DNA of 64,000 nt from a bacterium. GTDB lineage: Bacteria > Myxococcota > UBA727 > JAUIJE01. Both the position numbers and the translations under genes were made by a program. The notes under the pieces were generated by a model that was given only the letters and a program-made list of their open reading frames with translations, had not been told where the DNA came from and ran no database searches. Within the stretch, counting starts at the first letter, position 1; each line of letters opens with the position of its first letter. The stretch lies in the NCBI GenBank assembly GCA_030431455.1, contig JAUIJE010000012.1:124001-188000 (forward strand). Direction: 5' to 3'. Shown here piece after piece: positions 22,164-46,721 of the stretch.

Positions 22164-22781
22164 ATGGACTGGCGCGCCTGGCCCGGATCGATGCTCGACG
22201 CGGTGTTGCCCCGCCGGTGCGCGGCCTGTGACGCCCTCAGCGAACGGGCGGTGTTCTGCCCGGCCTGCGCCGACAGCATCCTCGTCGACGAGACCGGCGC
22301 CGCCGGGTACCTCTTCGGGGGCGCGCTGCAGACCGCGATCCGGCGCGCGAAGTTCGATCCCGACGAGACCCGGGGCCGGGCGCTGTGCCGGCTGGTCGAC
22401 GACCTCGGGCCCGAGGCCTGGCCGGCGGGCGAGGCGGTGGCGTACGTGCCCATTCACCCCCGGCGGTTCGCGGGGCGCGGGTTTGATTTGTCCGGCTTGC
22501 TCGCGGGGCGGGTGGGGGGACGGTTGGGTCGCCCCGTGGTCCACGCTCTGGACTGCGTGCGGTTCGAGGCGCCGCTGTCGATGGGGGGGCGCGCCCGGCG
22601 CGAGGATGTGGCCGGGAAGTTCGCGGTGCGGGCCCCGGTGCACGGCCGCGGGCTGCTCTTGGTCGACGACGTGAAGACCACCGGGGCGACCTTGGCCGAG
22701 GCCGCGCGGGTGCTGGCCGAGGCGGGCGCGGTGGTGACGACCTGGGCGCTCAGCCGCGCGCCCGGCGCCGACGAAGCCTGA
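22164..22781 (+). CDS. comF: ComF-family phosphoribosyltransferase-like protein
   Basis: 205 residues. An N-terminal four-Cys zinc ribbon (CAAC...CPAC, residues ~19-36) and a PRTase fold with the PRPP loop LLLVDDVKTTGAT near residue 165 define ComF. ComF/GntX proteins act in DNA uptake in competent bacteria, though many carriers are not known to be competent. Its 3' end overlaps the tail of the convergent cytochrome gene by 32 bases. The upstream hairpin (22133-22151) is GC-rich and of unknown use. Confidence 0.9.
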   Translation: MDWRAWPGSMLDAVLPRRCAACDALSERAVFCPACADSILVDETGAAGYLFGGALQTAIRRAKFDPDETRGRALCRLVDDLGPEAWPAGEAVAYVPIHPRRFAGRGFDLSGLLAGRVGGRLGRPVVHALDCVRFEAPLSMGGRARREDVAGKFAVRAPVHGRGLLLVDDVKTTGATLAEAARVLAEAGAVVTTWALSRAPGADEA

Positions 22782-24516
22782 GCAGCCCGAGGCCGAGCAG
22801 GGGCAGGCCCGCGCGGGCCAGCGTGCCCTGGTGGGCGCCACAGGCGCAGCCGTCGCCGGTGGGGGCCTCGGGTTCGGGGGTGGGCTCGGGCTCGGCCACG
22901 CCCGCGTCGTCGCCTCCGACGACGCTGGCGTCGGGGGCGGGGCCGGCGTCTGCGGGGCCGGCGCCGCAGGCGCGGGGCCCGTCGTAGGCGGTGACGGTGC
23001 CGTCCGCGTCCACCCAGACATCGACCTCGGCCAAGGGCACGGGCACCGCGCCCCCCGCCGCGTTCCACGCGGCTTCGAGGGTGTCGCCAAATCCAGGGGC
23101 ATTGTCGCGGAGGAAGCGGTAGTACTCCCCCGACGCGACTTGGTAGTGCACGGTGGCCTGCAGCCGGCGCGGAAAACACCCGGCCTCGCCGAGGGGCAGG
23201 GCGACGTCGTCCCAGTGGGCCAGGGTGCCGCCGCCGAGGTCTTCGAAGGTGTAGCGCACCGGGGCGGTCTCGTCGTCGGGGCGGAATCCGGCGGGGGGGA
23301 TGCGGTTGTCTTTGATGATGCGGTCGGCGAGCAAAAAGCGGAACGATTTCTCGTCGCTGCCCTGGCCGAGGAGGATCTCCCAGACCACGAGGGGGTCCTT
23401 GCCGGTCTCGAAGTCGAATGTGACTGGATCGGGCTTGCCGGTCCAGGGGCCCGCGGTGCCGTCGGCGGCGGTGACGCGGTGCTCGAGCCACATGCGCCGG
23501 CCCTCGGCATACCCGGTGGGCAGCTTGTGGCCGGACTTGTTGGTGACCCGAACCCGGGCCGTGCCCCCGGCGATGTCGATGCCGGCCACGTCGAGGTCAC
23601 AGGCCTCTTCCATCAAAAAGTCGCGCGAACGCTGCACCGTCACCGCGGCGGCTTCGGCGATGTTGGCCAGCTCATCGGGGCGTTCGGACGCGGGCAGGTG
23701 GCTGACCATGAGGGGGACCACGGTGTTGCCGCCGACCAGGGTGTGGTCGTGACGTTCGCGGTCGGGACCTTCCTCCTGGCGGGTGATTTTCCCCGGGGTC
23801 GCGGGCATGTGACAGGCTTGGCATGATTGGCCGCCGGGGCCGGCAAAATCCGACTGCAGCCACTCGGTGAAGGTGCGCTGCTCGGGCACCGCGGGGCCGA
23901 TGACCTCCTCGGTGTCGGGGTCCTTGCGGGGGGTGGCGTTGCTGACCTGGTGACAGCCCGCGCAAATCACCGACTCGGACATGAGGGGGTCGTGGACCGA
24001 GTCGTGGCTGGTATTGGGCACGGCGTCATCGTAGGGGCCGCGCTTGGCTTGGTCGTCGACGATGGTGAGGTTCGCGTTTTCGTACACGAGCGAAAAGGGG
24101 TCAAAGTCGCCGCCCCCGTCGGGCACGCCGCCGTCGACATCGGGCGGGGGGGGCGGGGCGAGCATTTGGCGGTGGCAGGCATCGCAGCTCACCCCGTGCT
24201 TGTCCCCGCCCGACAGGGCGCTGCCGTCGCTCGGCGTGGCCCGCCCCGCGAGCCAGCCGCTGTACACGTGACACTTGAGGCACAGGCCGGTGAGGGCGGG
24301 CTCATCCTGGTACGCGATCTCGAAGGCGGCGCGGAACACGGGGTCTACGCTGGCCAGGCGCATCATCGTGGCCGCGTACCCATCCGAGGCCAGGCTCTTG
24401 TCGTCGTTGCTGTGGCATTGGGTGCAGGTGAACCCGGACTGCAAAGGGACCGTCAACTCGCCGGGCCCGGTCTGGGCGGGGGAGAGCAGCAGCGTCGACA
24501 CCGTCAACCACCACAT
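22750..24516 (-). CDS. Pentaheme c-type cytochrome with MYXO-CTERM-like anchor
   Basis: 588 residues with a short signal peptide. Five CxxCH motifs: CTQCH, CLKCH, CDACH, CAGCH and CQACH, all in the first ~240 residues, with HDHTLVGGN as in cytochrome c-554-like proteins. The second half is a beta-rich domain (ITNKSGHKLPTGY-type motif seen as VRVTNKSGHKLPTGYAEGR). After a Pro/Glu/Asp spacer it ends GDGCACG, a hydrophobic helix (LLGLGLLRL) and RRRRARG, the layout of a MYXO-CTERM sorting signal, so it is probably surface anchored. Its start is one base after the stop of the upstream membrane protein gene. Confidence 0.85.
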   Translation of the reverse strand: MWWLTVSTLLLSPAQTGPGELTVPLQSGFTCTQCHSNDDKSLASDGYAATMMRLASVDPVFRAAFEIAYQDEPALTGLCLKCHVYSGWLAGRATPSDGSALSGGDKHGVSCDACHRQMLAPPPPPDVDGGVPDGGGDFDPFSLVYENANLTIVDDQAKRGPYDDAVPNTSHDSVHDPLMSESVICAGCHQVSNATPRKDPDTEEVIGPAVPEQRTFTEWLQSDFAGPGGQSCQACHMPATPGKITRQEEGPDRERHDHTLVGGNTVVPLMVSHLPASERPDELANIAEAAAVTVQRSRDFLMEEACDLDVAGIDIAGGTARVRVTNKSGHKLPTGYAEGRRMWLEHRVTAADGTAGPWTGKPDPVTFDFETGKDPLVVWEILLGQGSDEKSFRFLLADRIIKDNRIPPAGFRPDDETAPVRYTFEDLGGGTLAHWDDVALPLGEAGCFPRRLQATVHYQVASGEYYRFLRDNAPGFGDTLEAAWNAAGGAVPVPLAEVDVWVDADGTVTAYDGPRACGAGPADAGPAPDASVVGGDDAGVAEPEPTPEPEAPTGDGCACGAHQGTLARAGLPLLGLGLLRLRRRRARG

Positions 24517-24517
24517 G

Positions 24518-25621
24518 TCAGAACCTCATGGACCGACCTTGGGGGGCGGCGGGGTCATCGTCCCGGGCCGGCGGGGGATCGTCGACGGGGGCCGGCCCAT
24601 CATACCCGGTTTGGTCGTCGATCGGGGCGGGGGGGGCAGCGTTTTTCGAGCCCCGCGGGCGGGGTTGGTCGTCGTCGTACCCATCCTGGGGGTCGTCATC
24701 GTCATAGGGCCCGTCGTCGTATCCCGCCTCGTCGCCCCCGGCGGTGACCCCGTTGGCGATGGCGCTGCTCACCCCCGACACCAGGGTCGAGGTGACGCAC
24801 ATCCCCATGCCGCAGCTGGTTCCACAGAGCCCGCAGCCGATCCCCACCAGCGAGAGCGGGCTGACGAACTGGAGGAGGGCCAAAAAGTAGGTCACGAACA
24901 GGGACCCGGTGCCCCCCACAAAACACGCGGCGCCACACACAGACTCCAGCAGCCCCAACAAGCCAGCCCCACCGGTCCACCCGGTGCGCCCCCCATCGTC
25001 GTCCAGGATCGCGGACAACCCCACCGCGGTGAGCGTCATCCCCAGAGCCCCGACCGGCCCGATCAACAACAATGCCACAGCATGAGGAACCAGCGACGCA
25101 TACAAGAACGCGGGTCCGGGATTCTGCGCGGAGGGTCGGAGGCCGGGGCCGTTCTGGGTCGCGCCCGCGATGCCGCTGAGCACGGTGCCGACCATGAACG
25201 CGGCCACCGAAGCACCCGTGGCCGCGACCGCGACCCCCCCGATGATCCACGGGGTCCAGCCCGCCCCTTCGTCTTCCGCGACGGCGTCGTCGTCATAGCG
25301 CTCATCTTCGTAGCGCTCATCGTCGTAGCGCTCATCGTCGTAGCGCTCATCGTCGTAGCGCTCATCGTCGCGCCGGCCGCCGTCGCCCTCGTCTTCTGGG
25401 GCGGCGCCGTCGGCAGGCCGGTCGTCGTCGGTCGTCGGTTCGGCCCGATCCGCGGGTGGGTCATCCGACGCGTCATCGAGCGCTGCGTTGTCCGGGGCCC
25501 CGTCGTCCGCGGGGGGCTCGGCCACCGGGTCGCGGTCGTCGACGATGTCATCGGGGGCGACGTCCTGTCCCGCCGCGGGGAGGGCGAGAGCCCACACAAA
25601 AATCAAAAACAAAGGGCGCAT
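24518..25621 (-). CDS. Membrane protein with acidic DERYD repeats
   Basis: 367 residues: Sec signal (FLIFVWALALPAAGQ), about 100 Asp/Glu-rich residues including five DERYD units, then about four hydrophobic helices (GTVLSGIAG, LVPHAVALLLIGPVGALGM, YFLALLQFVSPLSLVG, GLCGTSCGMGMC) and an Asp-rich tail. Cysteines cluster in the last helices. I started at the ATG before the signal peptide; a TTG nine codons upstream is less likely. It is the first gene of a unit with the pentaheme cytochrome. Function unknown. Confidence 0.75.
   Translation of the reverse strand: MRPLFLIFVWALALPAAGQDVAPDDIVDDRDPVAEPPADDGAPDNAALDDASDDPPADRAEPTTDDDRPADGAAPEDEGDGGRRDDERYDDERYDDERYDDERYEDERYDDDAVAEDEGAGWTPWIIGGVAVAATGASVAAFMVGTVLSGIAGATQNGPGLRPSAQNPGPAFLYASLVPHAVALLLIGPVGALGMTLTAVGLSAILDDDGGRTGWTGGAGLLGLLESVCGAACFVGGTGSLFVTYFLALLQFVSPLSLVGIGCGLCGTSCGMGMCVTSTLVSGVSSAIANGVTAGGDEAGYDDGPYDDDDPQDGYDDDQPRPRGSKNAAPPAPIDDQTGYDGPAPVDDPPPARDDDPAAPQGRSMRF
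25291..25365. repeat. 15-bp tandem repeat, five units (DERYD coding)
   Basis: Five units of CGTCGTAGCGCTCAT; the last three are identical and the first two differ by one base each. It lies in the N-terminal acidic part of the membrane protein gene and keeps the frame if the copy number changes. Confidence 0.9.
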
Positions 25622-28957: not shown

Positions 28958-29079
28958 GGGGCGAGGGATTAAAGAAGCTTTACGCAGGACCCAGCGTCGT
29001 GTGTGCAGGGTGCGGATCTCGGGACAGCCGCCGGTTTGACCTCGACCACGAGCGCGTTGGATGCAGTATGGTGTGGGCA

Positions 29080-30359
29080 ATGTGGAATGCTTGGACCCGG
29101 TTCGGCGTCGTGGTGCTTTTGTGCGCCTCGGCGGCATGTTTGCGCGTGGACGTCACCGGTCTGCGCTGTGATGGAAGCAGCGGGTGCGGCGCCCAGCTCG
29201 AGTGCGTGGCCGGACATTGTGCCGACCCCACGACGCTGACGCCGTGTGACGGCCCCGCCGCGTGCACCGCCCCGACGTCCTGCATCGACGGCTACTGCGT
29301 CGACCAGTCCGGAGACGGGGATGGCGACGGGGATGGGGATGGCGACGGGGATGGCGATGGCGATGGTGATGGAGATGGCGACGGTGACGGTGACGGAGAT
29401 GGCGACGGTGACGGTGACGGGGATGGTGACGGGGATGGTGACGGTGACGGTGACGGTGATGGTGACGGTGACGGTGATCTCGACGCTGGGCTCCCCGACG
29501 TCGTGGTGCTCGACGCGGGTGTGGACGCGGGGGTTGACGCGGGCCTCGACGCTGGCGTGCCCGATGCGGACACCCCGGACGCGGACGCGCCCGATGTCGA
29601 TCCTGGGAACGCTTGCGTGATGGGGGTGTCGACCGTCGTCGACAGCAACAGCCAATGCGACATCCCGGCCGGCGCGACCTCCCTCGAGGTCGAAGTGTGG
29701 GGCGGCGGCGGCGGCGGCGGTGACTCCGGCGGCGATCCCCCCGGCACCGGCGGCGGCGGCGGGTATGCGACCACGCAGATGGCGGTGTCGCCGGGCGACG
29801 AGGTTTCGTTCTACATCGGCGCGCCCGGCCAGGGCGGTGCCTGCGGGGGGGCGGGGGGCAACTCGTTCGTCGGCGCGGGCGGCGCCGGTGGGGGCGGCCC
29901 CGGCCAAGACGGGTCGGGCGCGTTGTCTGGGGGGGTCGGTGGCATGGGCGGGCCGTTCAGCGGCGGCGCCGGCCAAAGCGGCGGCGGAGCCGGCGGCGGC
30001 GAGATGGAAGGCGACGAGCCGGGCGGCGGGGGCGGTGGCGCGTCCGGCGTCCGGGTCGAGGGCACGTTGGTCGCGGTGGCCGGTGGCGGCGGCGGCGGCG
30101 GCGGGGCGCGCCAAGAAGGGGGCGGCGGCACCGGGGGCGCGGGCTGCGGACAACCCGGCGGCAACCGGCCCAGCGTCGCGGACGCGACCGGCGGTGGCGG
30201 TGGCGGCGGGGGCGGCTGCCAAGGCGACAGCGTGGAGGCGGGGAGCGGTCCCGCCCCGGGCAATCCCTTTGACGCGGACGGCGCTGGCATGGGCGGCGAC
30301 AACTCCGGAACCTGTCCCGCGTCCAATGGAACTGCAGGGCGCGTGGTGTACGTGATCCA

Positions 30360-30363
<4 letters not shown>
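29080..30363 (+). CDS. Lipoprotein with (GD)28 stalk and polyglycine ALK-like domain
   Basis: About 427 residues; an ATG four codons upstream (29068) is an alternative start, neither has a clear ribosome site. Lipobox CASAACLR, two small Cys modules, 28 Gly-Asp pairs, a 'VDAG' spacer, then ~240 residues that are about half glycine. Within it are WGGGGGGG, GGNSFVGAGGAGGGG, LVAVAGGGGGGGG and GRVVYVIQ, which is the pattern of glycine-rich domains of ALK/LTK receptors and some bacterial surface proteins, where long glycine helices pack together. The stop overlaps the kinase GTG start. Confidence 0.8.
29311..29478. repeat. 6-bp tandem array coding (Gly-Asp)28
   Basis: 28 uninterrupted GGNGAY units, starting with GGA GAC and ending GGT GAT. 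Codon choice changes from GGG/GGC at the start to GGT at the end. Confidence 0.95.
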
Positions 30364-33176: not shown

Positions 33177-36100
33177 TCAGTTCCCGTTGGGGTGGCAGTT
33201 CAAGCAGTTCGGGTAGTTGCCCGAGATATAGCCAGGCCGGCCAGAGTGTTTGTCGTTCATCTTGTTGACGCTGTGACATTGCTGGCAGGAGATGAGGTCT
33301 TCGTCGAAGTTGGTGGCGAAGTCCTTGGGCGCGGCCCGGACCTGCTCGTGACAGCGCTGGCAGTTTTTGCGGTTGTGTTTGCCCGACGTGATCCGGAACG
33401 GGAGGTGCTGGGTGGGGTCGTCGGTCTGGGCGTCCCCGTGGCACATCTTGCAGTCGTTGGAATCGGCCGACCCCCAGCCGCCGCTCGGCGCGCCCACGAG
33501 GCTGTGCATGTTGCTGATGCTCTCGCCCATGGTCCCCTCGTGGCATTGCCGGCAGCCGTTTTGGGTCCAGTCGTTGCTGTTGAGGTGACACTCCCCGCAG
33601 GTCACGTCCTCGTGCGCGTCGCCTTGGGCGATGGGGAAGATCGGGGTGTGGTCGATGTTCACCGCGGCGTTGCCGTCGGGGTGACAGGACAGACAGGTCT
33701 GGGTCTCGTACACGTACCCGGCAAACCCATTGTGCACCTGGTTCATCTCGTTTTGGGCGTGGCAGTTTGAGCAGCTGCGCTGGTTGAAGTCCGTGGCCCA
33801 GGCTTTATCCGGCCGGGACTGGGCGTGGCACTCGAGGCAGTTTTCGCGGAAGTGGTTGTTGCCGTTGGTGATCAAGAACGGGCCGTGGTCCGCGACCTCG
33901 TCGACCTGGGATTCGGCGTGGCAGCGTTTGCACTGGGTGGAGTTTTGCGCGCCGGGGTTGTTGGCGAACTCGCCCACGTCGCTGTGAATGGCGTTGAGGT
34001 TCTGCATCTCGGTGCCCTCGTGGCACTCGCGGCACGCGACCTGGGCCCGGTTGGTGGTCGAGAGGTGGCAGTCATCGCAGCCAATGCCGTTGTGCACCGC
34101 GGGCGGGGCGAGCGGGAAGTAGGCTTCGTGGTCGATGGTCACCGCGCCGGTGCCGTCCGGGTGGCAGGACAGGCAGGTGTTGGTGTCGTACGCGTAGCCT
34201 GCAATCCCATTGTGGATCTGCCCGGTGGGGGTCTGGGCGTGGCAAGCAAAACAACTCTTCTCGGTGAAGTCGGTGGCCCAGGGTTTGTCCGCCCGTGAGC
34301 TGCTGTGACATTCGAGGCAGTTCTGTTGGTAGTGCTCGTTGGCCGGGGTGGGGGTGATGAGGAACAAGCCGTGGGCGGCCACCGGATCGACCTGCGACTC
34401 GGCGTGGCAGCGTTTGCATTGGTTGCTGTCCTGGAGGGCGGGGTCGTTGACGAACTCGCCCACGTCGCCGTGGATGGCCGGCAGGTTGTCGCCCACCGTG
34501 GTCTCGTGGCACTCGCGGCAGGCCACCACGCTGCGATCGGTGTCGCTCAGGTGGCAGTCGCCGCAGGTGATGTCGGCGTGGGCCGCGGGCGGCTCGAGGG
34601 GGAAGAAGTCCTCGTGGAAGATGTCCACGTCACGGCTGCCGTCGACGTGGCACGAGAGGCAGACCTGGGTGTTGTACTGGTAGCCGGGGATGCCGTTGTG
34701 GAACGGCGTGGTCTCGCCCTGGAGGTGACAGCCGGTGCAGCTCTGGTCGGCGAAGTCGGCGGCCCAGGGTTTGTCGGTGCGCCAAGAGGTGTGGCACTCG
34801 AGACACTCTTGCCCGTGGTGGGGCGCGTCCGGCTCGATGTTGAACGGGCCGTGCAGGGCCACGCTGTCGACCTGGGAATCGGCGTGGCAGCGTTTGCACT
34901 GTCCGGAGTCTTGGGCTGCAGGGGCATTGAGCCATTCGCCCACGTTGATGTGAATGCCGGGGAGATCATCGCCCTGGGGGCCGTTGTGGCATTCCTGGCA
35001 GCCGACCACGGATTGGTCCGTGCTCGAGAGGTGGCATTCCGAACAGCCAACTTCGTTGTGCACCGCGGGCAAGGCCAGGGGGAAGAAGGGCTCGTGGTCG
35101 ATGGTCACGTCCTTGCTGCCGTCGGGGTGACAGGTCAGGCAGGCGTTGTCGGTGTAGGCGTAGCCCGCAATGCCATTGTGGTCGGCGTTGGTCTCATTGG
35201 GCTGGTGGCAGAACAGGCACGTACGCTGTTCGAAGTCGGCGGCCCAGTCCTTGTCCGTGCGTTTGGCCCGGTGACAGTCCAGGCAGTTTTCGCGGTGGTG
35301 CTCGTTGCCGGGGGTGATCAGGAAGGGGCCGTGGGCGCTCACCGCGTCGACCTGCGACTCGGCGTGGCAGGTCTTGCAGTCGGTGGAGGTCAGCGTCGCC
35401 CCCCCATCGCTGAACTCCCCGACGTCGTTGTGGATGCCCGCGAGGTCCTCGTTGCGTTCGACCTCGTGGCATGTGCGGCACGCGTTCTGGCTGGGGTCGG
35501 TGTTGGAGGTGTGGCAGCTGCTGCAGTCGACGCCTTCGTGCTCACTGCCGGGCGCGATGGGGAAAAACGGGGTGTGGTCGAGGTTGACGTCTTTGCTCCC
35601 GTCGGGGTGACAGGACAGGCAGGTGTTGGTCTCGTAGGCGTAGCCGAAGACCCCGCTGTGATCGGCGTTGGTCTCGGTGGCGCCGTGGCAGAAAAAGCAG
35701 CTGCGCTGTTCGAAGTCGGCGGCCCAGTCTTTGTCCGCGCGGCTTTGGGTGTGGCACTCGAGGCAGTTTTCTTTGTTGTGTTCGGAGCCGGGCTGAATCA
35801 AGAACGGTCCGTGATCGGTGATCGCGTCGACCTGCGACTCGGCGTGGCAGCGCTTGCATTGGGTGGAGTCTTGGGCGTCGAACCCGCCGTCTTGGAACTC
35901 GCCGACCTGGGCGTGGATCGCGGGCAGGTCGTCTTCGGTCTCATGGCATTGGCGGCAGGCGTTCTGGGAGGCGTCGGCGCTGTCGAGGTGACACTCCGCG
36001 CAGCCGATCTCGTCGTGTTCGGCCCCCGGGGCGATGGGGAAGTATTGCTCGTGAGCCACATCGGTGACCTTGCGGCCGTCGGGGTGGCAGGTCAGGCAGG

Positions 36101-37412
36101 TGGTGGTCTCGTAGGCGTAGCCAAAGATGCCGTCGTGGGTGTCGGTCATGTCCGGCTGGAGGTGACAGTATTCGCAACTCTTCTGCGAGAAGTCCGCGGC
36201 CCATTCTTTGTCCGGGCGCGCGTCGGTGTGGCAGTCAAGGCAGTTTTCGCGGTTGTGGGGCTCGTCGGGGGCGATGAGGAAGGGCCCGTGATCGCCGACC
36301 CGGTCGACCTGCGACTCGGCGTGGCAGCGTTTGCACTGCACAGAGTCTTGGAACTCCGCGGCGTGGCCGTTGAACTCGCCGACGTCGAGGTGGATGCCGG
36401 GCAGGTCGTCGCCTTCCTCGAGCTCGTGGCACTCGCGGCACCGGGTGACCGAGGGCTCCTCGCCGAGGATGTGGCAGTCGCCGCAGCCGATCTCTTGGTG
36501 GGCGGCGGGGGGCTCGATGGGGAAGTTCGCCTCGTGTTCGATGTAGGTGATCTTGTAGCCGTCGGGGTGGCAGGTGAGGCAAGTCGGCGTGTCATATGCG
36601 TAGCCGACGACGGGGGCGTGCACCGGGTCCATGTCGGGCTGGGTGTGACACAATGCGCATGACTGCTGCGCGAAGTCGGTGGCCCAGGCTTTGTCCGCGC
36701 GCCCGTCGACGTGGCACTCCATGCAGTTGGATTTTTCGTGGGGCACAGGTTGGCCCATCGGGCCCTGGATGAGGAAGGGGCCGTGGTCGGCGATGGCGTC
36801 GACCTGCGACTCCGCGTGGCAGGACTTGCAGTCCGCGCTTTCGATCACCCGGCCCTCGTCGTCGAACTCCCCGACGTCGCCGTGCAGCGCGTCGATGTCG
36901 TGGTCGTCGAGCGCATAGTGGCAACCCGCGCAGTTGTTGCGCCCGTATTGGTTGGGCTCCAGGGCGAGGTGACACTCGCTGCACCCGATGTCGGCGTGCA
37001 CCGCCGGCGGATCGATCGGGAACAGCAGCTCGTGGCCCCCCGGGGGGCCGGCCTCGCCGCGCGGGTGACACTGGTAGCAGGCCACCGCCTCGTACATGTA
37101 GCTCGGGACCGCGCGGTGCTGGGTGTTGGTGTCCTCTTCGTTGTGGTCGTGGCAGGACATACACGTGAAGTCGTTGAACGACGGGGATCCGCCGTGACAC
37201 GCCGCGCAATCCATGCCGCCGTGTGCGCCGTCGACGATCGGGAACAACGGTTCGTGTTGCTCGCGGGTCATGGGCACGCCGAAGCCGTCGCCGTTGGGCT
37301 CGGGGGGGCAGCCGAGGGAGAAGGCCACCAGCGTGAGGAGACCCAACGCCAGCCCCCACCGGGATGTGGCGTTGTGCGGGACCAGCGGACGGTTCGACAG
37401 ACCATTCACCAT
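33177..37412 (-). CDS. 51-heme c-type cytochrome lipoprotein (3 + 8 x 6 hemes)
   Basis: 1411 residues. GGGGGAGG lies 8 bases before the ATG; the signal ends VAFSLGC with lipobox Cys35. I count 51 CxxCH motifs. The first three lie in residues ~65-130, and the other 48 fall into eight successive units of about 157 residues with six hemes each. Each unit follows the same plan: GCxECHL, CRECHE, IHxDVGEF, QCKRCHAESQVD, DHGPFLI, NCLECH, DKxWAxDF, SCxxCH, GYAYxTxxCLxCHPDG, HExFFP. Other His residues in each unit can serve as distal ligands, so bis-His hemes are likely. Such a protein could carry electrons across or beyond the outer membrane. It contains two CAATG-N4-TGCA sites. I found no other domain. 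Confidence 0.95.
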   Translation of the reverse strand: MVNGLSNRPLVPHNATSRWGLALGLLTLVAFSLGCPPEPNGDGFGVPMTREQHEPLFPIVDGAHGGMDCAACHGGSPSFNDFTCMSCHDHNEEDTNTQHRAVPSYMYEAVACYQCHPRGEAGPPGGHELLFPIDPPAVHADIGCSECHLALEPNQYGRNNCAGCHYALDDHDIDALHGDVGEFDDEGRVIESADCKSCHAESQVDAIADHGPFLIQGPMGQPVPHEKSNCMECHVDGRADKAWATDFAQQSCALCHTQPDMDPVHAPVVGYAYDTPTCLTCHPDGYKITYIEHEANFPIEPPAAHQEIGCGDCHILGEEPSVTRCRECHELEEGDDLPGIHLDVGEFNGHAAEFQDSVQCKRCHAESQVDRVGDHGPFLIAPDEPHNRENCLDCHTDARPDKEWAADFSQKSCEYCHLQPDMTDTHDGIFGYAYETTTCLTCHPDGRKVTDVAHEQYFPIAPGAEHDEIGCAECHLDSADASQNACRQCHETEDDLPAIHAQVGEFQDGGFDAQDSTQCKRCHAESQVDAITDHGPFLIQPGSEHNKENCLECHTQSRADKDWAADFEQRSCFFCHGATETNADHSGVFGYAYETNTCLSCHPDGSKDVNLDHTPFFPIAPGSEHEGVDCSSCHTSNTDPSQNACRTCHEVERNEDLAGIHNDVGEFSDGGATLTSTDCKTCHAESQVDAVSAHGPFLITPGNEHHRENCLDCHRAKRTDKDWAADFEQRTCLFCHQPNETNADHNGIAGYAYTDNACLTCHPDGSKDVTIDHEPFFPLALPAVHNEVGCSECHLSSTDQSVVGCQECHNGPQGDDLPGIHINVGEWLNAPAAQDSGQCKRCHADSQVDSVALHGPFNIEPDAPHHGQECLECHTSWRTDKPWAADFADQSCTGCHLQGETTPFHNGIPGYQYNTQVCLSCHVDGSRDVDIFHEDFFPLEPPAAHADITCGDCHLSDTDRSVVACRECHETTVGDNLPAIHGDVGEFVNDPALQDSNQCKRCHAESQVDPVAAHGLFLITPTPANEHYQQNCLECHSSSRADKPWATDFTEKSCFACHAQTPTGQIHNGIAGYAYDTNTCLSCHPDGTGAVTIDHEAYFPLAPPAVHNGIGCDDCHLSTTNRAQVACRECHEGTEMQNLNAIHSDVGEFANNPGAQNSTQCKRCHAESQVDEVADHGPFLITNGNNHFRENCLECHAQSRPDKAWATDFNQRSCSNCHAQNEMNQVHNGFAGYVYETQTCLSCHPDGNAAVNIDHTPIFPIAQGDAHEDVTCGECHLNSNDWTQNGCRQCHEGTMGESISNMHSLVGAPSGGWGSADSNDCKMCHGDAQTDDPTQHLPFRITSGKHNRKNCQRCHEQVRAAPKDFATNFDEDLISCQQCHSVNKMNDKHSGRPGYISGNYPNCLNCHPNGN
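33179..37000. repeat. Eight tandem ~470-bp coding repeats (hexaheme units)
   Basis: The DNA of the 51-heme gene repeats about every 470 bases. The segment coding for QCKRCHAESQVD recurs near 33905, 34390, 34870, 35345, 35830, 36310 and, in altered form, at the ends. Units 2-7 are most alike, and the two outer units are more diverged, as expected for growth by internal duplication. Limits are approximate. Confidence 0.85.
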
Positions 37413-37537: not shown

Positions 37538-38275
37538 GTGACCCCCGCGAAAAAGTCCCCCCACCCACCCGACCCGGCCGCGGACGCCGATCCGCTGGTC
37601 GCGCGGCGGGACTTGCTCGACCGGTTTCGCGCGGGGAACGAGCGCGCCCTCGCCGAGGTGTTCACCCTGTACGTCGATGTCGTCGCCCGCACCCTGCGCC
37701 GCGGGGTCACGGTGCGCGTCGACGGGGCGCCGCTCCGTCTCGGCCCGGACCTCGGGGAGTCCGACGTCGAACAGCTGGTGCAAGAGACCTTTCTTCGGGC
37801 GTTCAAGGAGTCCGCCCGGCTGTCGTACGACGGGCTGCGGCCCTACGGCGCCTACCTGTGCACCATCGCGCGCAACTGCCTGATCGATCTCGGGCGCCGG
37901 CGCTCGGTCGAGCGCCGGGTGTTCGTCGACCGCGACGACCAACACCTGGACGCGCCAGATCAAGGCCCCAGCCCCGCCGAAGCCGCCCACGAGCGGGAGA
38001 TGCACGCCGCGCTGCGCGCCTTTCTCGATGGCCTGGACGAGGCGGATCGCGCGCTTGTCGACGTGCGGTTCGTGCGGGGCGAGAGCCTGCGGGTCGCGGC
38101 CAAGACCCTCGGCACGTCGGTGTTTCGTCTGCGCAAACGCGATGTGCGCATCCGGCGGGCCCTGTTGGCCTTCCTCCGACAACGTGGGCTGATGTCCGAC
38201 GCCACCGTGCACATCGGGGGCAGCGTCCTGGACCGCCGCCACACAGATCCCGAACCGTCACGTAAAAAGAGTTAA
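37538..38275 (+). CDS. ECF-like RNA polymerase sigma factor
   Basis: 245 residues from a GTG. Region 2 is seen in ERALAEVFTLYVDVVARTLRR, DVEQLVQETFLRAFKES and YGAYLCTIARNCLIDLGRRRS; region 4 in LDEADRALVDVRFVRGES followed by the helix-turn-helix LRVAAKTLGTSVFRLRKRDV. It is the first gene of a four-gene unit joined by overlapping stop/start codons (TAATG, ATGA, GTGA). The next gene encodes a one-helix membrane protein, the usual place for an anti-sigma factor. Confidence 0.85.
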   Translation: MTPAKKSPHPPDPAADADPLVARRDLLDRFRAGNERALAEVFTLYVDVVARTLRRGVTVRVDGAPLRLGPDLGESDVEQLVQETFLRAFKESARLSYDGLRPYGAYLCTIARNCLIDLGRRRSVERRVFVDRDDQHLDAPDQGPSPAEAAHEREMHAALRAFLDGLDEADRALVDVRFVRGESLRVAAKTLGTSVFRLRKRDVRIRRALLAFLRQRGLMSDATVHIGGSVLDRRHTDPEPSRKKS

Positions 38276-39114
38276 TGGTCGATTCTTCTCCTCCTCCCCC
38301 TGGCGAGCCGCGCGGTCTGTCCGCGTGGTTGCTGGAGCGTGCGCTCACCGGCGCCCCGGACGCGTGGTCGACGCGTGCGGCGCGCCGGTGGGTGCTCGCG
38401 CGGCCGGCGTTGCGGGAGATGTACGACGACCTGCGAGGGGCCGGCCGGGTGCTGTCGGGCCGCGCCTTTTCGCCCGAACAGGCGGGCCTGGTGCTCGCGG
38501 ATCTACAGCCCGCCCGGGGGCCCGCGCGCGCCCGGGGCGGCGCCTGGGGTTTGGCCGCGGCCGCGGCCGCGGCGGCGGTGTTCTTCTTGGTGGGGGACGA
38601 CGGGGCGCACCCCCGGGCCGCGACCCAGGGGGCGATGGGGGTCAAGGTCCAATGCCTCACTGGCGCGGGCGAGGAGTGGCGGGTGCGGGGCGCGGCGGTG
38701 GCCGGGGTGTTCGATCCGGTCGAGCGTCTGTCCTGTCCCCGCGACGCGCTGTACACGTTCGCCTTGACCAACCTCAGCAAAGCGCCGGTTCACGTGTTTG
38801 TGATCGGCGTGGACCAGGACAACCAGCTGCATTGGTTCGCGCCCTTTGGCCAGGACGCGCGATCGCTGCCGGTGGGGCCGGGCACGGTGGAACGCCTGGT
38901 GGACACGGTGGCCGACGCCAAGGGCCAAGTCTGGGGCTCTGACCTGACCCTGTTCGCACTTTTTGGTGACAAGCCGCTGTCTGGTTCGCGCATCGAACAG
39001 GAGCTGCGCGCGGCCCAAGGACAGCTGCGCCTCGGCCGCTTGTCCCGGCTGCCCCTCGACGTCGAGCACCAAGCCCGGCTCGAGCTCTACGCGTCCAGCG
39101 GGTCGTCGCCATGA
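38275..39114 (+). CDS. Single-pass membrane protein, candidate anti-sigma factor
   Basis: 279 residues. About 85 cytoplasmic residues, a transmembrane helix near 88-103 (WGLAAAAAAAAVFFLV), then a periplasmic beta domain with VHVFVIGVDQDNQLHWFAPF, a pattern resembling DUF4384 domains often found with caspase-like proteins. No zinc-binding HxxxCxxC is present. Its place between the sigma gene and the caspase-like gene, with 1- and 4-base overlaps, makes an anti-sigma role the best guess. Confidence 0.6.
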   Translation: MVDSSPPPPGEPRGLSAWLLERALTGAPDAWSTRAARRWVLARPALREMYDDLRGAGRVLSGRAFSPEQAGLVLADLQPARGPARARGGAWGLAAAAAAAAVFFLVGDDGAHPRAATQGAMGVKVQCLTGAGEEWRVRGAAVAGVFDPVERLSCPRDALYTFALTNLSKAPVHVFVIGVDQDNQLHWFAPFGQDARSLPVGPGTVERLVDTVADAKGQVWGSDLTLFALFGDKPLSGSRIEQELRAAQGQLRLGRLSRLPLDVEHQARLELYASSGSSP

Positions 39115-40661
39115 GCTGGTCGCCGCCTTGGACCATCATCTGCGGCGCCTTGTGCGCCGTTGCGTTGTTGCGGGCGGGCACCGCGTCGGCCGCGGCCCCG
39201 GTCCGGTACACGGTGGTGGTGGGACACAACGGCGACGACGGGGGCGAGCGTCAACCGCTCCAGTACGCCGACGACGACGCCGCGCGGTTCTTTGATCAAG
39301 CCCATCGGGTGTCGCGCCGCGCGTGGTTGCTCACCGCCTTCGACCGCACCTCGGCCCGTACGTTCCCCGAGCTGTCCGACATCGCGCGGCCCCCCACCGT
39401 CGAGGAGCTGGCCCGGGTGATGGGGGAAGTGAACTGGGCCATGCGCGAACACAAAAAGCGCGGCGAGCCCACCGAGCTGGTGTTCTACTTCGCCGGCCAC
39501 GGCGACGTCGACGGGGGCGGCGAGGGCTACCTGATGCTGGCGGATGGGCGGTTCACGCGGACCCAGCTGCAAGATCAGGTGGTCGAAGCCTCCGCCGCCG
39601 ACGTCAACCACCTGATCATCGACGCCTGCGCGAGCTACTTCATGGTCCCGCGGGGCGCGTCCACCCCGCGTAAGCTCACCCCCGACATGCTCGATGCGCT
39701 GTCGCACCATGGGGTCACCGACCGCGAAGCGTTGCGCCGCACCGGGGTGTTGGTTTCGACCAGCGACGCGGCGGAGGTGCACGAGTCCGTGCAGGTCGGG
39801 GGCGGGGTGTTTTCCTACCTGGTGCGTTCTGCGTTCGCGGGGGCGGCTGACCTCGACGAGGACGGCCGCGTCGAGTACGCGGAGGTGGCCGCGTTCGTGG
39901 CCCACAGCACCGCCACCATCGACGACCCGCGCGCCAGTCTGCACATGTTTGCCGCCGCGCCAAAGGCCCGGCCCCACGCCGCCTTGTATGACCAACGCCG
40001 GGCCGAGGCCGAGCACTTCCTCGTCGTGGGAGGCACCGCGCCCCGGCACATCAAGGTGTTTGACGCCCATGGCCTGCCCTACGCCGAGCTCCACCGCGCG
40101 GCCGACAACACCGTGACCATCGCCCTGACCGGGAGCGACTACTTTGTGGTCCAGTCCGACGCCGAAGAAGCGGTGTTGGTGCCGCGGGCCCCGGGCGCGT
40201 ACGCGGTCTCCGCGTTGTCGTTCACCCCCGCGATGACCGCGCGCCGCCAGGCCGCGGGGCCCTTCGCGGGTCTGTTGCGGGACCCGTTCTCGTCGTCGTT
40301 CTTGTCGGGGTACCTGGCCCAGAGCGGGCTTTTGGCCCCCCACACCCAGGAGCGCTTCGAGGTCCCTTACGCGCCCGGCGCGGAGGCGCCGTGGCAAGTG
40401 CCGTGGGTGGCCATCGGCACAACGGCATTGGGCGCGGCGGCGGTCGCGGCGGCGGCCTCGGGCGCGGCCGCGGTGGTCAACATCGCGTTGTTCGCGGCCT
40501 TGAGCGCCGAGTTCGAACAGACCCGGACCCTGGACCCGCAGCTGTCCCTGCAGCTGGAGGTGGCGCGGGTGAGCGCGGTGGGTCTGGCCGCCGTCGGGGT
40601 GGTGTTCGCCGCGGCCGGCGGGGGCGCGCTGGTGCTCGGTCTCGCCGAGGAGGGTCCGTGA
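39111..40661 (+). CDS. Membrane-anchored caspase-like (C14) peptidase
   Basis: 516 residues. A signal/anchor helix near 8-28 precedes the caspase fold: a beta strand VRYTVVVGHN, catalytic His130 in FYFAGHGD and catalytic Cys173 in LIIDACASYF. Both residues of the dyad are intact. The C-terminal part is a beta domain followed by two strongly hydrophobic helices (TALGAAAVAAAASGAAAVV; VSAVGLAAVGVVFAAAGGGALVLG). The peptidase domain should face the periplasm. Its coupling to a sigma/anti-sigma pair suggests that it cleaves or senses a partner in a signalling cascade. Confidence 0.88.
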   Translation: MSWSPPWTIICGALCAVALLRAGTASAAAPVRYTVVVGHNGDDGGERQPLQYADDDAARFFDQAHRVSRRAWLLTAFDRTSARTFPELSDIARPPTVEELARVMGEVNWAMREHKKRGEPTELVFYFAGHGDVDGGGEGYLMLADGRFTRTQLQDQVVEASAADVNHLIIDACASYFMVPRGASTPRKLTPDMLDALSHHGVTDREALRRTGVLVSTSDAAEVHESVQVGGGVFSYLVRSAFAGAADLDEDGRVEYAEVAAFVAHSTATIDDPRASLHMFAAAPKARPHAALYDQRRAEAEHFLVVGGTAPRHIKVFDAHGLPYAELHRAADNTVTIALTGSDYFVVQSDAEEAVLVPRAPGAYAVSALSFTPAMTARRQAAGPFAGLLRDPFSSSFLSGYLAQSGLLAPHTQERFEVPYAPGAEAPWQVPWVAIGTTALGAAAVAAAASGAAAVVNIALFAALSAEFEQTRTLDPQLSLQLEVARVSAVGLAAVGVVFAAAGGGALVLGLAEEGP

Positions 40662-41707: not shown

Positions 41708-43939
41708 GTGGACACGCTCAATCTCCTGTACCTGACCACCGGTGTCACCATCGCCTTCGCGATCGTGGTGCTGTACTACCTGCGGCGCCTTCGCCGCGGC
41801 GTGCGCGACACCGAGCGGCTCACCCTGACCGTGGCCGAAGGCCAGCACATCCCGCCGTCGTTGCACCCGGTCATCGACACCCAACGGTGCATCGGCAGCT
41901 TGTCCTGCGTGAAGGCCTGCCCCGAGGGGGACATCCTCGGGCTGGTCGATGGCCGGGCGACTTTGGTCGAGGCCTCCCATTGCATTGGGCACTCCAAGTG
42001 CGCCACCGAGTGCCCGGTCGACGCGATCAAGTTGGTGTTCGGCACCAAAGAAAAGGGCGTGGACCTCCCTGAGACCGACGAGAAGTTCGAGTCCACCAAG
42101 GCGGGCATCTTCATCATCGGTGAGCTCGGGGGCATGGGCCTCATCAAGAACGCCATTCGCCAAGGGCTGGACGTGGCCGAGACCCTCAAAGCTCGGGCCC
42201 CCAAGCTCAAGGCGGGGGCGCCGGACGCGGTCGACGTGCTCATCGTGGGGGCGGGGCCGTCGGGCATCGCCGCGGCGGTGGGGTGCACCCAAGCGGGCCT
42301 GTCCTACGCCGCGTTGGAGCAGGGCACGGTCGGGGGCACAGTGGCCAACTACCCCCGCGGCAAAGTGGTGATGAGCGAGAAGGTCGTCATCCCCGGTTAC
42401 GGCGCGTTCGGGCGGAGCCTCTTGTCCAAAGAAGAGCTGATGGACGAGCTGTCCGAGGTGATGATCAAAAACCGCGTGCGGGTGGAGAGCGGGGTCCGGG
42501 TCACCAACATCACGGGGGATGAAGGCGACTTCGTCGTCGAGACCAGCAAAGGCACCCGGCGGGCGCGCATGGTGGTGTTGGCCATCGGGCTGCGGGGGAC
42601 ACCGCGCAAGATCGGCTGCAGCGGGGAAAGCACCACCAAGGTGACCTACAACCTCGTCGACCCTGACCAGTACCAGGGCCGCAAAGTGTTGGTGGTGGGC
42701 GGCGGCGACTCCGCGGTGGAGGCCGCGATTCAGCTCGCCGAGGAGACCGACGCCGAGGTCGCGATCTCCTACCGCAAGGACTCGTTCTCGCGCTGCAAGC
42801 CCCGCAACCGCCAAATCATCGCCGACCTGATCGAAAAGAAAAAGGTGCGCGCGTTGATGGGCACGTCCGTGACCGCGATCTACGAGGACCGTGTGCATCT
42901 CCAGACCGCGAGCGGAAAGTCCGGCGGCCTGTGGAACGACAACATTCTCGTGTGTATTGGTGGAGAGCTGCCCACGAAGTTCTTGAAGGAGGCCGGGGTC
43001 ACGGTGCGGCGTTTCCACGCCGAGGAAAAGAAACGCTCCGCGGCGCCGGGGGAGCGTCCCAAGACCGCGGTGCACGTGCGGCAGAGCCGCCGGCTGGGCA
43101 TCTTTTTGTCCGTGATCGGCGTGGCCATCTTCGCGGGTCTGATGTGGGTGGGGCAGGACTATTACACCCTGCCGTTCGAGGAGCGGCGCGCGCACAAGTT
43201 GCACGAGTGGCTGCGGCCCGCGGGCCTGTGGGGCCACGGGGTGGGCATCATCGCGACCCTGGTGATGATGTCGAACTTCATCTACGTGTTGCGCAAACGC
43301 CTCGGTTTCCTCAAAGGCTCCGCCCCCATCCGCACCTGGCTGACGTTCCACATGTTCGTGGGCATCATGAGCCCGGTGGTGATCGCCTTTCACGCCGCGT
43401 TTCAGACCGAGAACCTCCTCGCGGTGGGGACGTGGATTTCGCTCGGGGTCGTCGTCGGCACCGGCGTATTCGGGCGCTTCTTGTTCGGTCTGGTGCCTTC
43501 GCACCACGGGAAGCTCGAGGCCTTGGTGTCGCTGCAGGAGCGTTGGATCGAGCAGCGCAAGGCGCTGCAGGACGCGATGGACGGCACCACCGATGTCGGC
43601 TCGGTGCGGCTGACCCTCGACGCGGTGACCAAGCCCCCGCCGGAAGTGTCGTTCTGGCAACTGCTCACCCTCGTGCCCCGTCGACGACTGCAGCTGGGCC
43701 GGATGATGGAGAAGGTGCGTCCCTATTTCCTCAGCGAGGAACAGTACCGCTTTTTCAAACACGAGGCCGGCAACGTGATCAAGCTCCGGCTCCAGGTCGC
43801 GGCCTACCGAAAACTCAAGAACATCTTCCGGGTCTGGATCGGGCTGCACGTCAGCCTCGCGATCTTCATGGTCCTGCTCATCGCCGGGCACATCGGCTTG
43901 TCCCTGTATCTCGGCTATCAGTGGATCTGGTCAGCATGA
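41708..43939 (+). CDS. Ferredoxin-flavin-membrane oxidoreductase (cytochrome b-like tail)
   Basis: 743 residues from a GTG. Order of domains: N-terminal transmembrane helix (TTGVTIAFAIVVLYYL); a two-cluster ferredoxin segment with Cys61/67/71 and Cys92/98/102; an FAD/NAD(P)-binding disulphide-oxidoreductase fold with GAGPSG at 181-186 and GGGDSAVEAA at 331-340; then from ~450 several membrane helices with His residues (WGHGVGIIATLVM, TFHMFVGIMSPVVIAFHAAF, LIAGHIGLSLYLGY) that could bind b hemes. In both ferredoxin motifs the second Cys of the usual CxxCxxCxxxCP is replaced (Ser, His). It probably moves electrons between a cytosolic donor and the periplasmic cytochromes encoded next. Confidence 0.88.
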   Translation: MDTLNLLYLTTGVTIAFAIVVLYYLRRLRRGVRDTERLTLTVAEGQHIPPSLHPVIDTQRCIGSLSCVKACPEGDILGLVDGRATLVEASHCIGHSKCATECPVDAIKLVFGTKEKGVDLPETDEKFESTKAGIFIIGELGGMGLIKNAIRQGLDVAETLKARAPKLKAGAPDAVDVLIVGAGPSGIAAAVGCTQAGLSYAALEQGTVGGTVANYPRGKVVMSEKVVIPGYGAFGRSLLSKEELMDELSEVMIKNRVRVESGVRVTNITGDEGDFVVETSKGTRRARMVVLAIGLRGTPRKIGCSGESTTKVTYNLVDPDQYQGRKVLVVGGGDSAVEAAIQLAEETDAEVAISYRKDSFSRCKPRNRQIIADLIEKKKVRALMGTSVTAIYEDRVHLQTASGKSGGLWNDNILVCIGGELPTKFLKEAGVTVRRFHAEEKKRSAAPGERPKTAVHVRQSRRLGIFLSVIGVAIFAGLMWVGQDYYTLPFEERRAHKLHEWLRPAGLWGHGVGIIATLVMMSNFIYVLRKRLGFLKGSAPIRTWLTFHMFVGIMSPVVIAFHAAFQTENLLAVGTWISLGVVVGTGVFGRFLFGLVPSHHGKLEALVSLQERWIEQRKALQDAMDGTTDVGSVRLTLDAVTKPPPEVSFWQLLTLVPRRRLQLGRMMEKVRPYFLSEEQYRFFKHEAGNVIKLRLQVAAYRKLKNIFRVWIGLHVSLAIFMVLLIAGHIGLSLYLGYQWIWSA

Positions 43940-45837
43940 CGCGCATCGGTTGGGGGACGATCTTGGTCATGACCTTGGCCGCGGCCGCGCCGTCGTGGGG
44001 CCAAGTGTTCTCGCCCGGCGACCTCGCCCGACCCCACGCGGACCTCGAGGGACTGACCAACTGCACCAAGTGTCACGACAGCGGCGATCGCCTCAACAAC
44101 GACAAATGTCTCGCTTGTCACAAAGAGATCAAACGCCGGGTCGCGAAGAAGCAGGGCTACCACGGTGGGCCCATCCGCCTCAAAAGCTGCGCCGAATGTC
44201 ACTACGACCACAAGGGCCGCAACGCGGAGTTGGTGCGCTGGTTCCCGGTCAAATCACGGTTTCAACACAAGAAGACCGGGTGGCCGCTGTTCGGGACCCA
44301 TGGCGAGCTCAAGTGCAACAACTGCCACGAGGTCCGTCTCATCAAAGACAAGTCCGTGCGCAAGCTGCTCAAGAAGCCGGCCAAGAAGGAGACCTTCCTC
44401 GGGCTGTCCAAGCGCTGCAGCGCCTGTCACTTCGACGAGCACCGGGGGCAGTTCGAGGACACCAGCTGCCAGGACTGCCACAACGAATCCAAGTTCAAGC
44501 CCGCGCCCGGTTTTCGCCACAACCGCGACGCCCGCTTTTCCCTCACCGGTCGGCATCGCCGCGTGGCCTGCAGCAAGTGCCATGAGCCGGAGCGCGACAC
44601 CACCACACCGCTCAACGCGTTCCCCAAGCCCAAACACGTCCAGTTTGCGCAGTACAAGCCGATTCCCCACCGCCGCTGCATCGAGTGTCACCGCGACCCC
44701 CACCGGGGGGAGCACGGCACCAAATGCCAAAGCTGCCACAGCACCAAAGGCTGGGAACACCTCAACCAAAAAGCGATGGACATCGGCTTTCACCAAAAGA
44801 CCGACTTCCCGCTCCTCGGCGAGCACCTCCACGTCGACTGCAAGCTGTGCCACGGACCGTTCCGCGGCCAACGCAAGGCGGTCTACAAAGGCATCGACCA
44901 CGACCGCTGCGACACCTGCCACCACGACGCCCACGTCGGGCAGCTCAGCGCCACCGATTGGGGGCGTTCGTTCTCCTTGGCCAAGTCGCCGCCCCCCACG
45001 CCCAAGGCCGCGGACAAAAAAACCAGCGGCCCCGATTGCCGGGCGTGTCACTCCGAGCGCGGCTTTGCCCCCGTCTTTTTCGAACTCGAGGACCACGGCA
45101 AGACCCGCTATCCACTCGAGGGCGCGCACCAAGCGGTGGCGTGTGTGGCGTGCCACGAGCCCAACAAAGGGTTGGTGCGCGAGGTCAGCCGCCACGTGCG
45201 CCGCGACCTGGCCCGCACCGGTCGTGACCTCCGGGTGAGCACGTTCCCCCTGAAGCTCCCCGAGACCACCGAGCGTTGCGAGACCTGCCACGACGACGTG
45301 CACAGCGGCCAGTTCGACGAGACGGTGAAAGCCAAGGGGTGCAACGCTTGTCACGAAAGCACGTCCTTTGGCTCGCTGCTGTTCGACCACAACCGCGACA
45401 GCCGCTTTGCCCTCGAGGGCGCCCACGAAAAGGTCGAGTGCCGCGCCTGTCACCGGGCGGACGAGACCCTCAAGAAGGACGCGAAGAAAGGCGTGGACGT
45501 CCACGACGTGCGCTACCGCCCCGTGGCCCAGGAGTGCCGGGACTGTCACCGCGACGTGCACGTGCGGCAGTTCGACGACCAGGCAGGACACACCGACTGC
45601 AGCCGCTGCCACGGGGCGGTGGCGTTCGCCCCCGCGGCGAAGTTTGACCACAACAGCACCGCCTTCACCGAGTTTGGCCTCCGGGGTCGCCACGCGACGC
45701 TGCCGTGCACCGCGTGCCACGCGGAGGTCGCGATCAACCCCGAGGTCAAGGCCGTGCGGTACCGCGGGTTGCCGACCCAGTGCGCGGGGTGTCACGAAGA
45801 CCAACACCACGGCCAGTTCGACGAGTATTTGCCATGA
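43936..45837 (+). CDS. 20-heme periplasmic c-type cytochrome
   Basis: 633 residues; the start overlaps the oxidoreductase stop (ATGA). Sec signal TLAAAAPSWGQ. I count 20 CxxCH motifs: CTKCH, CLACH, CAECH, CNNCH, CSACH, CQDCH, CSKCH, CIECH, CQSCH, CKLCH, CDTCH, CRACH, CVACH, CETCH, CNACH, CRACH, CRDCH, CSRCH, CTACH and CAGCH. Recurrent segments such as FDEHRGQFED and DDVHSGQFDE mark internal repeats. The protein is basic, unlike the acidic 51-heme protein. It has no lipobox, so it is expected to be soluble in the periplasm and to accept electrons from the membrane oxidoreductase. Confidence 0.93.
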   Translation: MTRIGWGTILVMTLAAAAPSWGQVFSPGDLARPHADLEGLTNCTKCHDSGDRLNNDKCLACHKEIKRRVAKKQGYHGGPIRLKSCAECHYDHKGRNAELVRWFPVKSRFQHKKTGWPLFGTHGELKCNNCHEVRLIKDKSVRKLLKKPAKKETFLGLSKRCSACHFDEHRGQFEDTSCQDCHNESKFKPAPGFRHNRDARFSLTGRHRRVACSKCHEPERDTTTPLNAFPKPKHVQFAQYKPIPHRRCIECHRDPHRGEHGTKCQSCHSTKGWEHLNQKAMDIGFHQKTDFPLLGEHLHVDCKLCHGPFRGQRKAVYKGIDHDRCDTCHHDAHVGQLSATDWGRSFSLAKSPPPTPKAADKKTSGPDCRACHSERGFAPVFFELEDHGKTRYPLEGAHQAVACVACHEPNKGLVREVSRHVRRDLARTGRDLRVSTFPLKLPETTERCETCHDDVHSGQFDETVKAKGCNACHESTSFGSLLFDHNRDSRFALEGAHEKVECRACHRADETLKKDAKKGVDVHDVRYRPVAQECRDCHRDVHVRQFDDQAGHTDCSRCHGAVAFAPAAKFDHNSTAFTEFGLRGRHATLPCTACHAEVAINPEVKAVRYRGLPTQCAGCHEDQHHGQFDEYLP

Positions 45838-46721
45838 CCGGACGCGCGCTGATCCTGTTGTTCGCCATCGGCGCAGCCGCGGCGGGGGCGGCGGGAGACG
45901 GCAAGCCCGCGGCCAAGGCCCCGAACAACCCCGCGGCCAAGCCGGCGCCCGCCGCGGTCCCGGCCGCGGCGGTCAAGGCCGCGCACGCGGGCCGGCCGGA
46001 CACCAAATGCGAGGCCTGCCACACCGAGGACGGTTGGCTGCCGGCCCGGTTCAACCACGACCGCACCGGCTTCGCCCTCAAGGGCGCCCACGCCAGCGCA
46101 GACTGCGCACGCTGCCACGGCACCGACTTTATGCGCGCGATCCCCACGACCTGTTCGGGGTGTCACCAGGACCCGCACGGCCAGGTGTTCGGCGTGATGT
46201 GCCAGGGCTGCCACCGCGAGCAGACCTGGCGCACCGAGATGGACGTCACCGCGCACCTGTGGACCAACTTCCCGCTCACCGGTCGCCATGGGGCGTTGGC
46301 CTGCACCGAGTGCCACCAAGATCGGCGGGATCGGGGCTACCGCCAGCCCACCGTCCAGTGCACCGACTGCCACCAGAACGACTACCTGCGGACGCCGGTG
46401 TACTCCATCGACCACGTCGCCAGCCGGCTCTCCACAGATTGTCGCCGGTGCCACCAGCCCACGAGCTTTCGGCCCGCGACGTTGCTTCAGCACGAGCCCT
46501 GCTACCCGATTTTGCAGGGCAGCCACCGGGGCGTGACCTGCCGCGAATGTCACAACAGCCTGGTCGGAACCCGCGTGGACCACACCTGCAGCACCCGCAA
46601 CCAGACCTGCAAGGACTGCCACGCGCACCAGTGCGACATCAGCAACGCCCAGCACCAAGACGTGGCGGGCTACGAATGTGAGTCCCTCAAGTGCGCCGGC
46701 TGTCACGCCCGCAACCGTTGA
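45834..46721 (+). CDS. 10-heme c-type cytochrome
   Basis: 295 residues; ATGA overlap with the 20-heme gene. Signal peptide, an Ala/Pro/Lys linker, then ten CxxCH motifs (CEACH, CARCH, CSGCH, CQGCH, CTECH, CTDCH, CRRCH, CRECH, CKDCH, CAGCH). The repeats PHGQVFGVMCQGCH and FNHDRTGFALKGAHA are related to those of the 20-heme protein, so the two genes share ancestry. Likely a periplasmic partner in the same electron chain. Confidence 0.92.
   Translation: MTGRALILLFAIGAAAAGAAGDGKPAAKAPNNPAAKPAPAAVPAAAVKAAHAGRPDTKCEACHTEDGWLPARFNHDRTGFALKGAHASADCARCHGTDFMRAIPTTCSGCHQDPHGQVFGVMCQGCHREQTWRTEMDVTAHLWTNFPLTGRHGALACTECHQDRRDRGYRQPTVQCTDCHQNDYLRTPVYSIDHVASRLSTDCRRCHQPTSFRPATLLQHEPCYPILQGSHRGVTCRECHNSLVGTRVDHTCSTRNQTCKDCHAHQCDISNAQHQDVAGYECESLKCAGCHARNR

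Follow-up and report, generated by a model that had tools for sequence, protein, structure and literature searches.

The cytochrome gene and its repeated units

The window, a stretch of 64,000 nucleotides from a bacterium of the phylum Myxococcota (contig JAUIJE010000012.1, positions 124,001 to 188,000; G+C about 69%), belongs to a 7.7 Mb genome in 28 contigs and contains a gene for a 51-heme lipoprotein c-type cytochrome, P0001 (Table 1). Its reading frame is uninterrupted over 1411 aa. The initial annotation had described 51 CxxCH motifs, three at the N-terminus and 48 in eight units of six, and a direct count in the open reading frame gave the same distribution; the sole Cys outside the motifs is the lipobox Cys, C35. 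Sequences shuffled at the composition of P0001 contained 0.55 CxxCH on average and 4 at most (2000 shuffles), so a chance or compositional origin of the motifs was rejected. Pfam returned Cytochrome_C7, Cytochrom_CIII, Cytochrom_c3_2 and an MtrC/MtrF-like domain model and nothing else, which agrees with the earlier description of a lipoprotein with no other domain. With 51 CxxCH, 51 conserved distal His (see below) and a lipoprotein signal, P0001 is a multiheme c-type cytochrome, with one heme per 27 mature residues. The host genome also encodes a family for cytochrome c assembly.

Table 1. Features of the cytochrome gene and of its gene-set partners (positions in the window)
Feature	Position	Strand	Description
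P0001	33177..37412	-	51-heme lipoprotein c-type cytochrome, 1411 aa; intact ORF, 51 CxxCH, lipobox Cys C35
N-terminal part	37008..37412	-	lipobox signal peptide (FSLG|C35), then N-terminal triheme module with CxxCH spacing 15, 28
Unit 1	36510..37007	-	hexaheme unit, 166 aa
Unit 2	36027..36509	-	hexaheme unit, 161 aa
Unit 3	35550..36026	-	hexaheme unit, 159 aa
Unit 4	35070..35549	-	hexaheme unit, 160 aa
Unit 5	34590..35069	-	hexaheme unit, 160 aa
Unit 6	34104..34589	-	hexaheme unit, 162 aa
Unit 7	33624..34103	-	hexaheme unit, 160 aa
Unit 8	33180..33623	-	hexaheme unit, 148 aa, most divergent
P0010	27284..29137	-	probable beta-barrel of the outer membrane, with Phe at the C-terminus and an amphipathic beta periodicity
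P0003	41708..43939	+	two-[4Fe-4S] domain, pyridine-nucleotide flavoprotein and membrane part with four His; putatively cytochrome-b-like
MHC20	43936..45837	+	20-heme cytochrome, ordinary signal peptide, predicted periplasmic
MHC10	45834..46721	+	10-heme cytochrome, ordinary signal peptide; 4 bp overlap with MHC20

The unit length, put at about 157 residues in the initial annotation, needs correction: the first seven units measure 159–166 aa and the last 148 aa. Motif order does recur from unit to unit as claimed there, with CxxCH spacings of 15, 33–35, 31–33, 22, 26 and 32 and small departures in unit 1 (17, 34, 35) and unit 8 (30, 25, 27). Each unit opens with a c7-like triheme (spacing 15, about 34); its second triheme (spacing 22, 26) bears the motif NCLxCHxxxRxDKxWAxDF. 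Pairwise identity among the units is 37–65% at the amino acid level and 54–71% at the DNA level. Unit 8 stops right after its final CxxCH, as does the single unit of relatives.

P0001 contains 57 His outside the CxxCH motifs, 47 of which are conserved in position across the unit alignment; there are six such positions per unit, and unit 8 ends before the sixth. Four His at matching positions in the N-terminal part (H53, H64, H99, H127) bring the distal His to 51, one per heme, and H90 is a further candidate ligand; the pairing of His with heme is by position and putative. This is in line with the earlier remark that each unit carries extra His for the sixth ligand, and supports a His supply sufficient for bis-His ligation at every heme. 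An AlphaFold model of two units, built from an alignment with seven in-register rows, was of too low confidence to be used (mean pLDDT 44.8, pTM 0.24).

Searched by sequence against the PDB, full-length P0001 found no match, and the unit profile gave weak, motif-driven matches only, the best being 6r2q_A (1.6e-4), which we take to be the MtrCAB complex. That entry carries the label cystathionine beta-synthase despite a sequence rich in CxxCH, and the label seems wrong.

A gene set shared with relatives

Several relatives encode on one strand, in this order, a P0003 homolog, a 20-heme cytochrome, a 10-heme cytochrome, a lipoprotein cytochrome and a P0010 homolog, so that P0003 homologs lie directly upstream of the 20-heme gene and P0010 homologs directly after the third cytochrome. 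All five members are present within 20 kb in the window in rearranged form: P0001 and P0010 are on the minus strand with their mutual order kept, and P0003-MHC20-MHC10 is on the plus strand, 4 kb past P0001. Kinase genes and a sigma factor/caspase group interrupt the set; since P0001 and P0010 stand apart from P0003-MHC20-MHC10 and from each other, co-transcription has been lost. Likewise, P0003 and P0010 are on opposite strands in G006, a genome of the same order. The unit family (23 of 195 genomes of the phylum; see below) co-occurs with P0003 in 22 of its 23 genomes (hypergeometric 5e-14) and with P0010 in 21 (3e-17), both values ignoring kinship. With its N-terminal triheme, six-heme terminal unit, lipobox and the partners P0003 and P0010, P0001 fits the family that we define here as the third lipoprotein cytochrome of the set. 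The P0003-20-heme-10-heme part also occurs in loci of Bacteroidota, Calditrichota, Ignavibacteriae, Terriglobia and a lake bacterium, some of these contigs having only some of the parts.

The four His in the membrane part of P0003 could hold two hemes b. P0010 is probably an outer-membrane barrel, judging from a beta-type hydrophobic moment ratio of 1.34 (0.94 ± 0.10 in shuffles) and a C-terminal Phe, with most homologs ending in F or Y. PDB and Pfam, searched with an alignment of P0010, gave no family match, and AlphaFold of P0010 alone yielded a model of too low confidence to be used (pLDDT 30.5).

Other genes of the window and genome were recorded alongside. A consecutive ECF-type sigma factor, unknown protein and caspase-like protein (37538-40661, plus strand) diverge from the P0001 gene across a gap of about 125 bp. 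On the minus strand, 22750-24525 encodes a five-CxxCH protein weakly similar to ExtKL-type cytochromes, whose Cys-rich, hydrophobic and Arg-rich C-terminal tail resembles a sorting signal. In the secreted-looking product of 28999-30363 (plus strand), a Gly-rich region comes after a long Gly-Asp repeat, and similar Gly-rich matches were seen in the loci of several relatives. Elsewhere in the genome, a further cytochrome with 30 hemes and 871 aa (C26; L030, 7219-9834) adjoins a distant P0003-like membrane part, and a second P0003 homolog (C8; L094, 8204-10397) consists of two overlapping pieces in different frames, perhaps through a frameshift; the 18 kb covered there contained no multiheme cytochrome.

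Origin of the array and lengthening by triheme modules

A profile of the unit was run against 195 genomes of the phylum (E ≤ 1e-10) and matched 23. The other matched genomes have one strong unit copy per protein, located C-terminally behind one or more trihemes, and only the genome of P0001 has a protein in which more than one unit exceeds 100 bits. This comparison of unit number, proposed with the initial annotation, therefore yields eight units in P0001 and one in its relatives, whose lipoprotein homologs mostly have 7–14 hemes: 9 in G048, G070, G074 and G068 and 11 in G131 and G157. These homologs resemble P0001 in being lipoproteins with N-terminal triheme(s), a C-terminal six-heme unit with RxDKxWAxDF and the same neighbours, and differ from it in having a single six-heme unit (or a five-heme form) instead of eight. 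In a tree with twelve units of relatives, the eight units of P0001 formed one clan (support 97/99). When one long-branched G006 row was added, the relatives' clan was still supported at 98/99 and the G006 row fell among the P0001 units. One clan here and single units in the relatives indicate that the array arose by tandem duplication within the lineage of the P0001 genome. In this way the six-heme terminal unit was most likely multiplied, taking P0001 from about 9 hemes to 51, and the duplication is thus old enough for the units to have reached their present divergence.

The initial annotation had further proposed that the length of the chain can grow or shrink by recombination between units. 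Growth by tandem duplication is supported by the tree and the one-unit relatives. Ongoing change is not supported: DNA identity between units peaks at 71%, and the longest exact repeat within the gene, 32 bp, covers a conserved motif, so nothing points to recent exchange among them. At this level of DNA identity, a collapsed-repeat assembly artefact is also unlikely. Against a wider collection of genome contigs, full-length P0001 found no matches, and the unit profile found five distant loci in other phyla.

The third cytochrome was also lengthened with modules of another kind. G006 encodes a 1622-aa frame (L023, 6724-11592) with 51 hemes in 17 triheme modules, of which modules 2–8 pair with modules 9–15 at 40–60% match, the signature of a duplicated block. 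The G025 version (940 aa) has 10 modules and 30 hemes, so that the two differ by exactly one block of seven modules, or 21 hemes. Like P0001, these proteins are lipoproteins of similar length with related N-terminal and terminal modules; unlike P0001, they are built of triheme modules rather than hexaheme units. In G010, a contig piece of the triheme type immediately precedes a P0010 homolog, so this type occupies the corresponding place in the gene set. The equal heme totals of P0001 (G000) and the G006 protein look like a coincidence. In contigs of Bacteroidota, Ignavibacteriae, Terriglobia and the lake bacterium (L033, L035, L036, L037), a relative of the 10-heme protein or an adjacent gene often has a triheme array with 16 to 38 hemes, beside P0003 or 20-heme homologs. 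It thus seems that lengthening has affected different members of the gene set in different phyla.

Cellular location, electron path and comparison with known systems

Among the inspected homologs of the third gene, almost all have a lipobox-like signal. The lipobox of P0001 has Ser at −3 and is not a classic one. An Asp after the lipobox Cys retains lipoproteins in the inner membrane, as established for E. coli. The residue after C35 is Pro rather than Asp, which makes outer-membrane anchoring likely; the cell surface is the proposed face. On balance we favour the reading that a conserved electron conduit ends in P0001, a lipoprotein cytochrome anchored in the outer membrane and lengthened by unit duplication. 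Electrons from cytosolic NAD(P)H or ferredoxin would enter the inner-membrane FeS-flavoprotein/cytochrome b P0003, pass to MHC20 and MHC10 in the periplasm, and cross the outer membrane with help of the P0010 barrel to P0001 outside the cell. There, P0001 would form a covalently continuous heme chain with bis-His ligation at every heme, and might serve both for reach to solid or distant acceptors (or donors) and for electron storage. The surface location, the direction of flow, the continuity of the hemes, the wire function and the barrel function are what we infer from these data. With GSU1996 of Geobacter sulfurreducens as a ruler, an extended heme wire in which 12 hemes span 12 nm (PMC10138318), P0001 would be about 50 nm long if extended. 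We put forward only tentatively the stronger proposal that these 51 stacked hemes, about 50 nm and anchored in the outer membrane, would make a complete, genetically encoded surface wire doing the job of polymeric filaments, with length given by unit number and the gene lengthened at least twice in one order, here by six-heme units and in G006 by triheme blocks.

P0001 might instead sit on the inner leaflet of the outer membrane as an electron capacitor of the periplasm, storing or relaying electrons as proposed for GSU1996. The GSU1996-type cytochromes are periplasmic covalent c7 arrays described as capacitors (PMC10138318), the heme density of P0001 would suit the same use, and a lipobox alone does not imply surface exposure. 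However, a periplasmic location is described for the Geobacter proteins, while the P0001 family keeps its lipobox-like signal; linkage to the probable barrel gene P0010 points to the outer membrane, and a chain extended to about 50 nm would be too long to fit across the periplasm. We regard this location as rather unlikely.

The conserved linkers H-x(2-3)-FP-[IL] between units could also be read as flexible connections between separate hexaheme beads, the protein then offering many redox centres, as a multi-electron surface reductase or a heme-rich decoration, and no continuous wire. Close packing at the junctions is favoured instead by the motif spacing over the unit boundaries (32), which is no longer than that within units (31–34), and by the one distal His held in each boundary linker, so that an arrangement of independent beads appears improbable. 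Restriction of the eight-unit architecture to one genome might even suggest a decaying or unmatured gene product of no function. We consider this very improbable: all 51 motifs and the matching His are intact, neither stop nor frameshift occurs, and the assembly and partner genes are present. Such preservation, in units that are only 37–65% identical, argues for long selection on P0001.

The terminal cytochrome reading, if true, has the consequence that the number of covalent heme units alone sets wire length in a surface conduit. Taken together, the 9-heme homologs, the 51-heme P0001 and the triheme versions with 30 and 51 hemes are a natural series of lengths whose partners are related, and in which the effect of length on reach, storage and rate can be examined directly. 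As the product of one gene, P0001 also offers a modular heme array whose eight related hexaheme blocks could be expressed and studied singly or in twos and threes.

Covalent heme wires and cytochromes with more than 100 hemes are already known; what is new is a hexaheme-unit array grown from a 9-heme homolog, and neither such an array nor its lengthening was found described in the open-access literature. A heme-number record for P0001 was rejected, as 113 and 112 are already published: Ca. Methanoperedens cytochromes have 113 and 52 hemes (PMC7082337), a Paludibaculum protein has 112, and Bacteroidota exceed 100 (PMC11495043). P0001 shares with these very large cytochromes its tens to more than 100 hemes per polypeptide; those of Ca. 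Methanoperedens, unlike P0001, are fused to S-layer domains. The published covalent heme wires GSU1996, GSU0592 and GSU2210 of G. sulfurreducens (12, 12 and 27 hemes; PMC10138318) likewise consist of covalent tandem heme modules in a single chain, as do the eight units here. GSU1996 differs in its triheme c7 domains, each with one His-Met heme, and in the periplasmic location described for the Geobacter proteins. The corresponding model TIGR04257 (nanowire_3heme, c(7)-type triheme) gave 16.3 bits for the best P0001 unit, below the cut-off of 40, and the NCBIfam decaheme models for DmsE/MtrA (TIGR03508, 155.4 vs 192.2 bits) and OmcA/MtrC (TIGR03507, 84 vs 209.3 bits) also remained below cut-off. 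Surface cytochromes of porin–cytochrome conduits (Pcc) surveyed in 2014 have 1–15 hemes, MtrC having 10 (PMC4245776). MtrC and OmcB/OmcC of these systems may resemble P0001 as terminal outer-membrane cytochromes near periplasmic cytochromes and a barrel protein, a tentative likeness that for P0001 comes from gene context and a predicted barrel; unlike P0001, they have no tandem hexaheme arrays. With OmcS, OmcE and OmcZ, finally, P0001 may share the role of a long heme conductor, but those filaments are non-covalent polymers of 4–8-heme subunits, whereas P0001 is one covalent chain.
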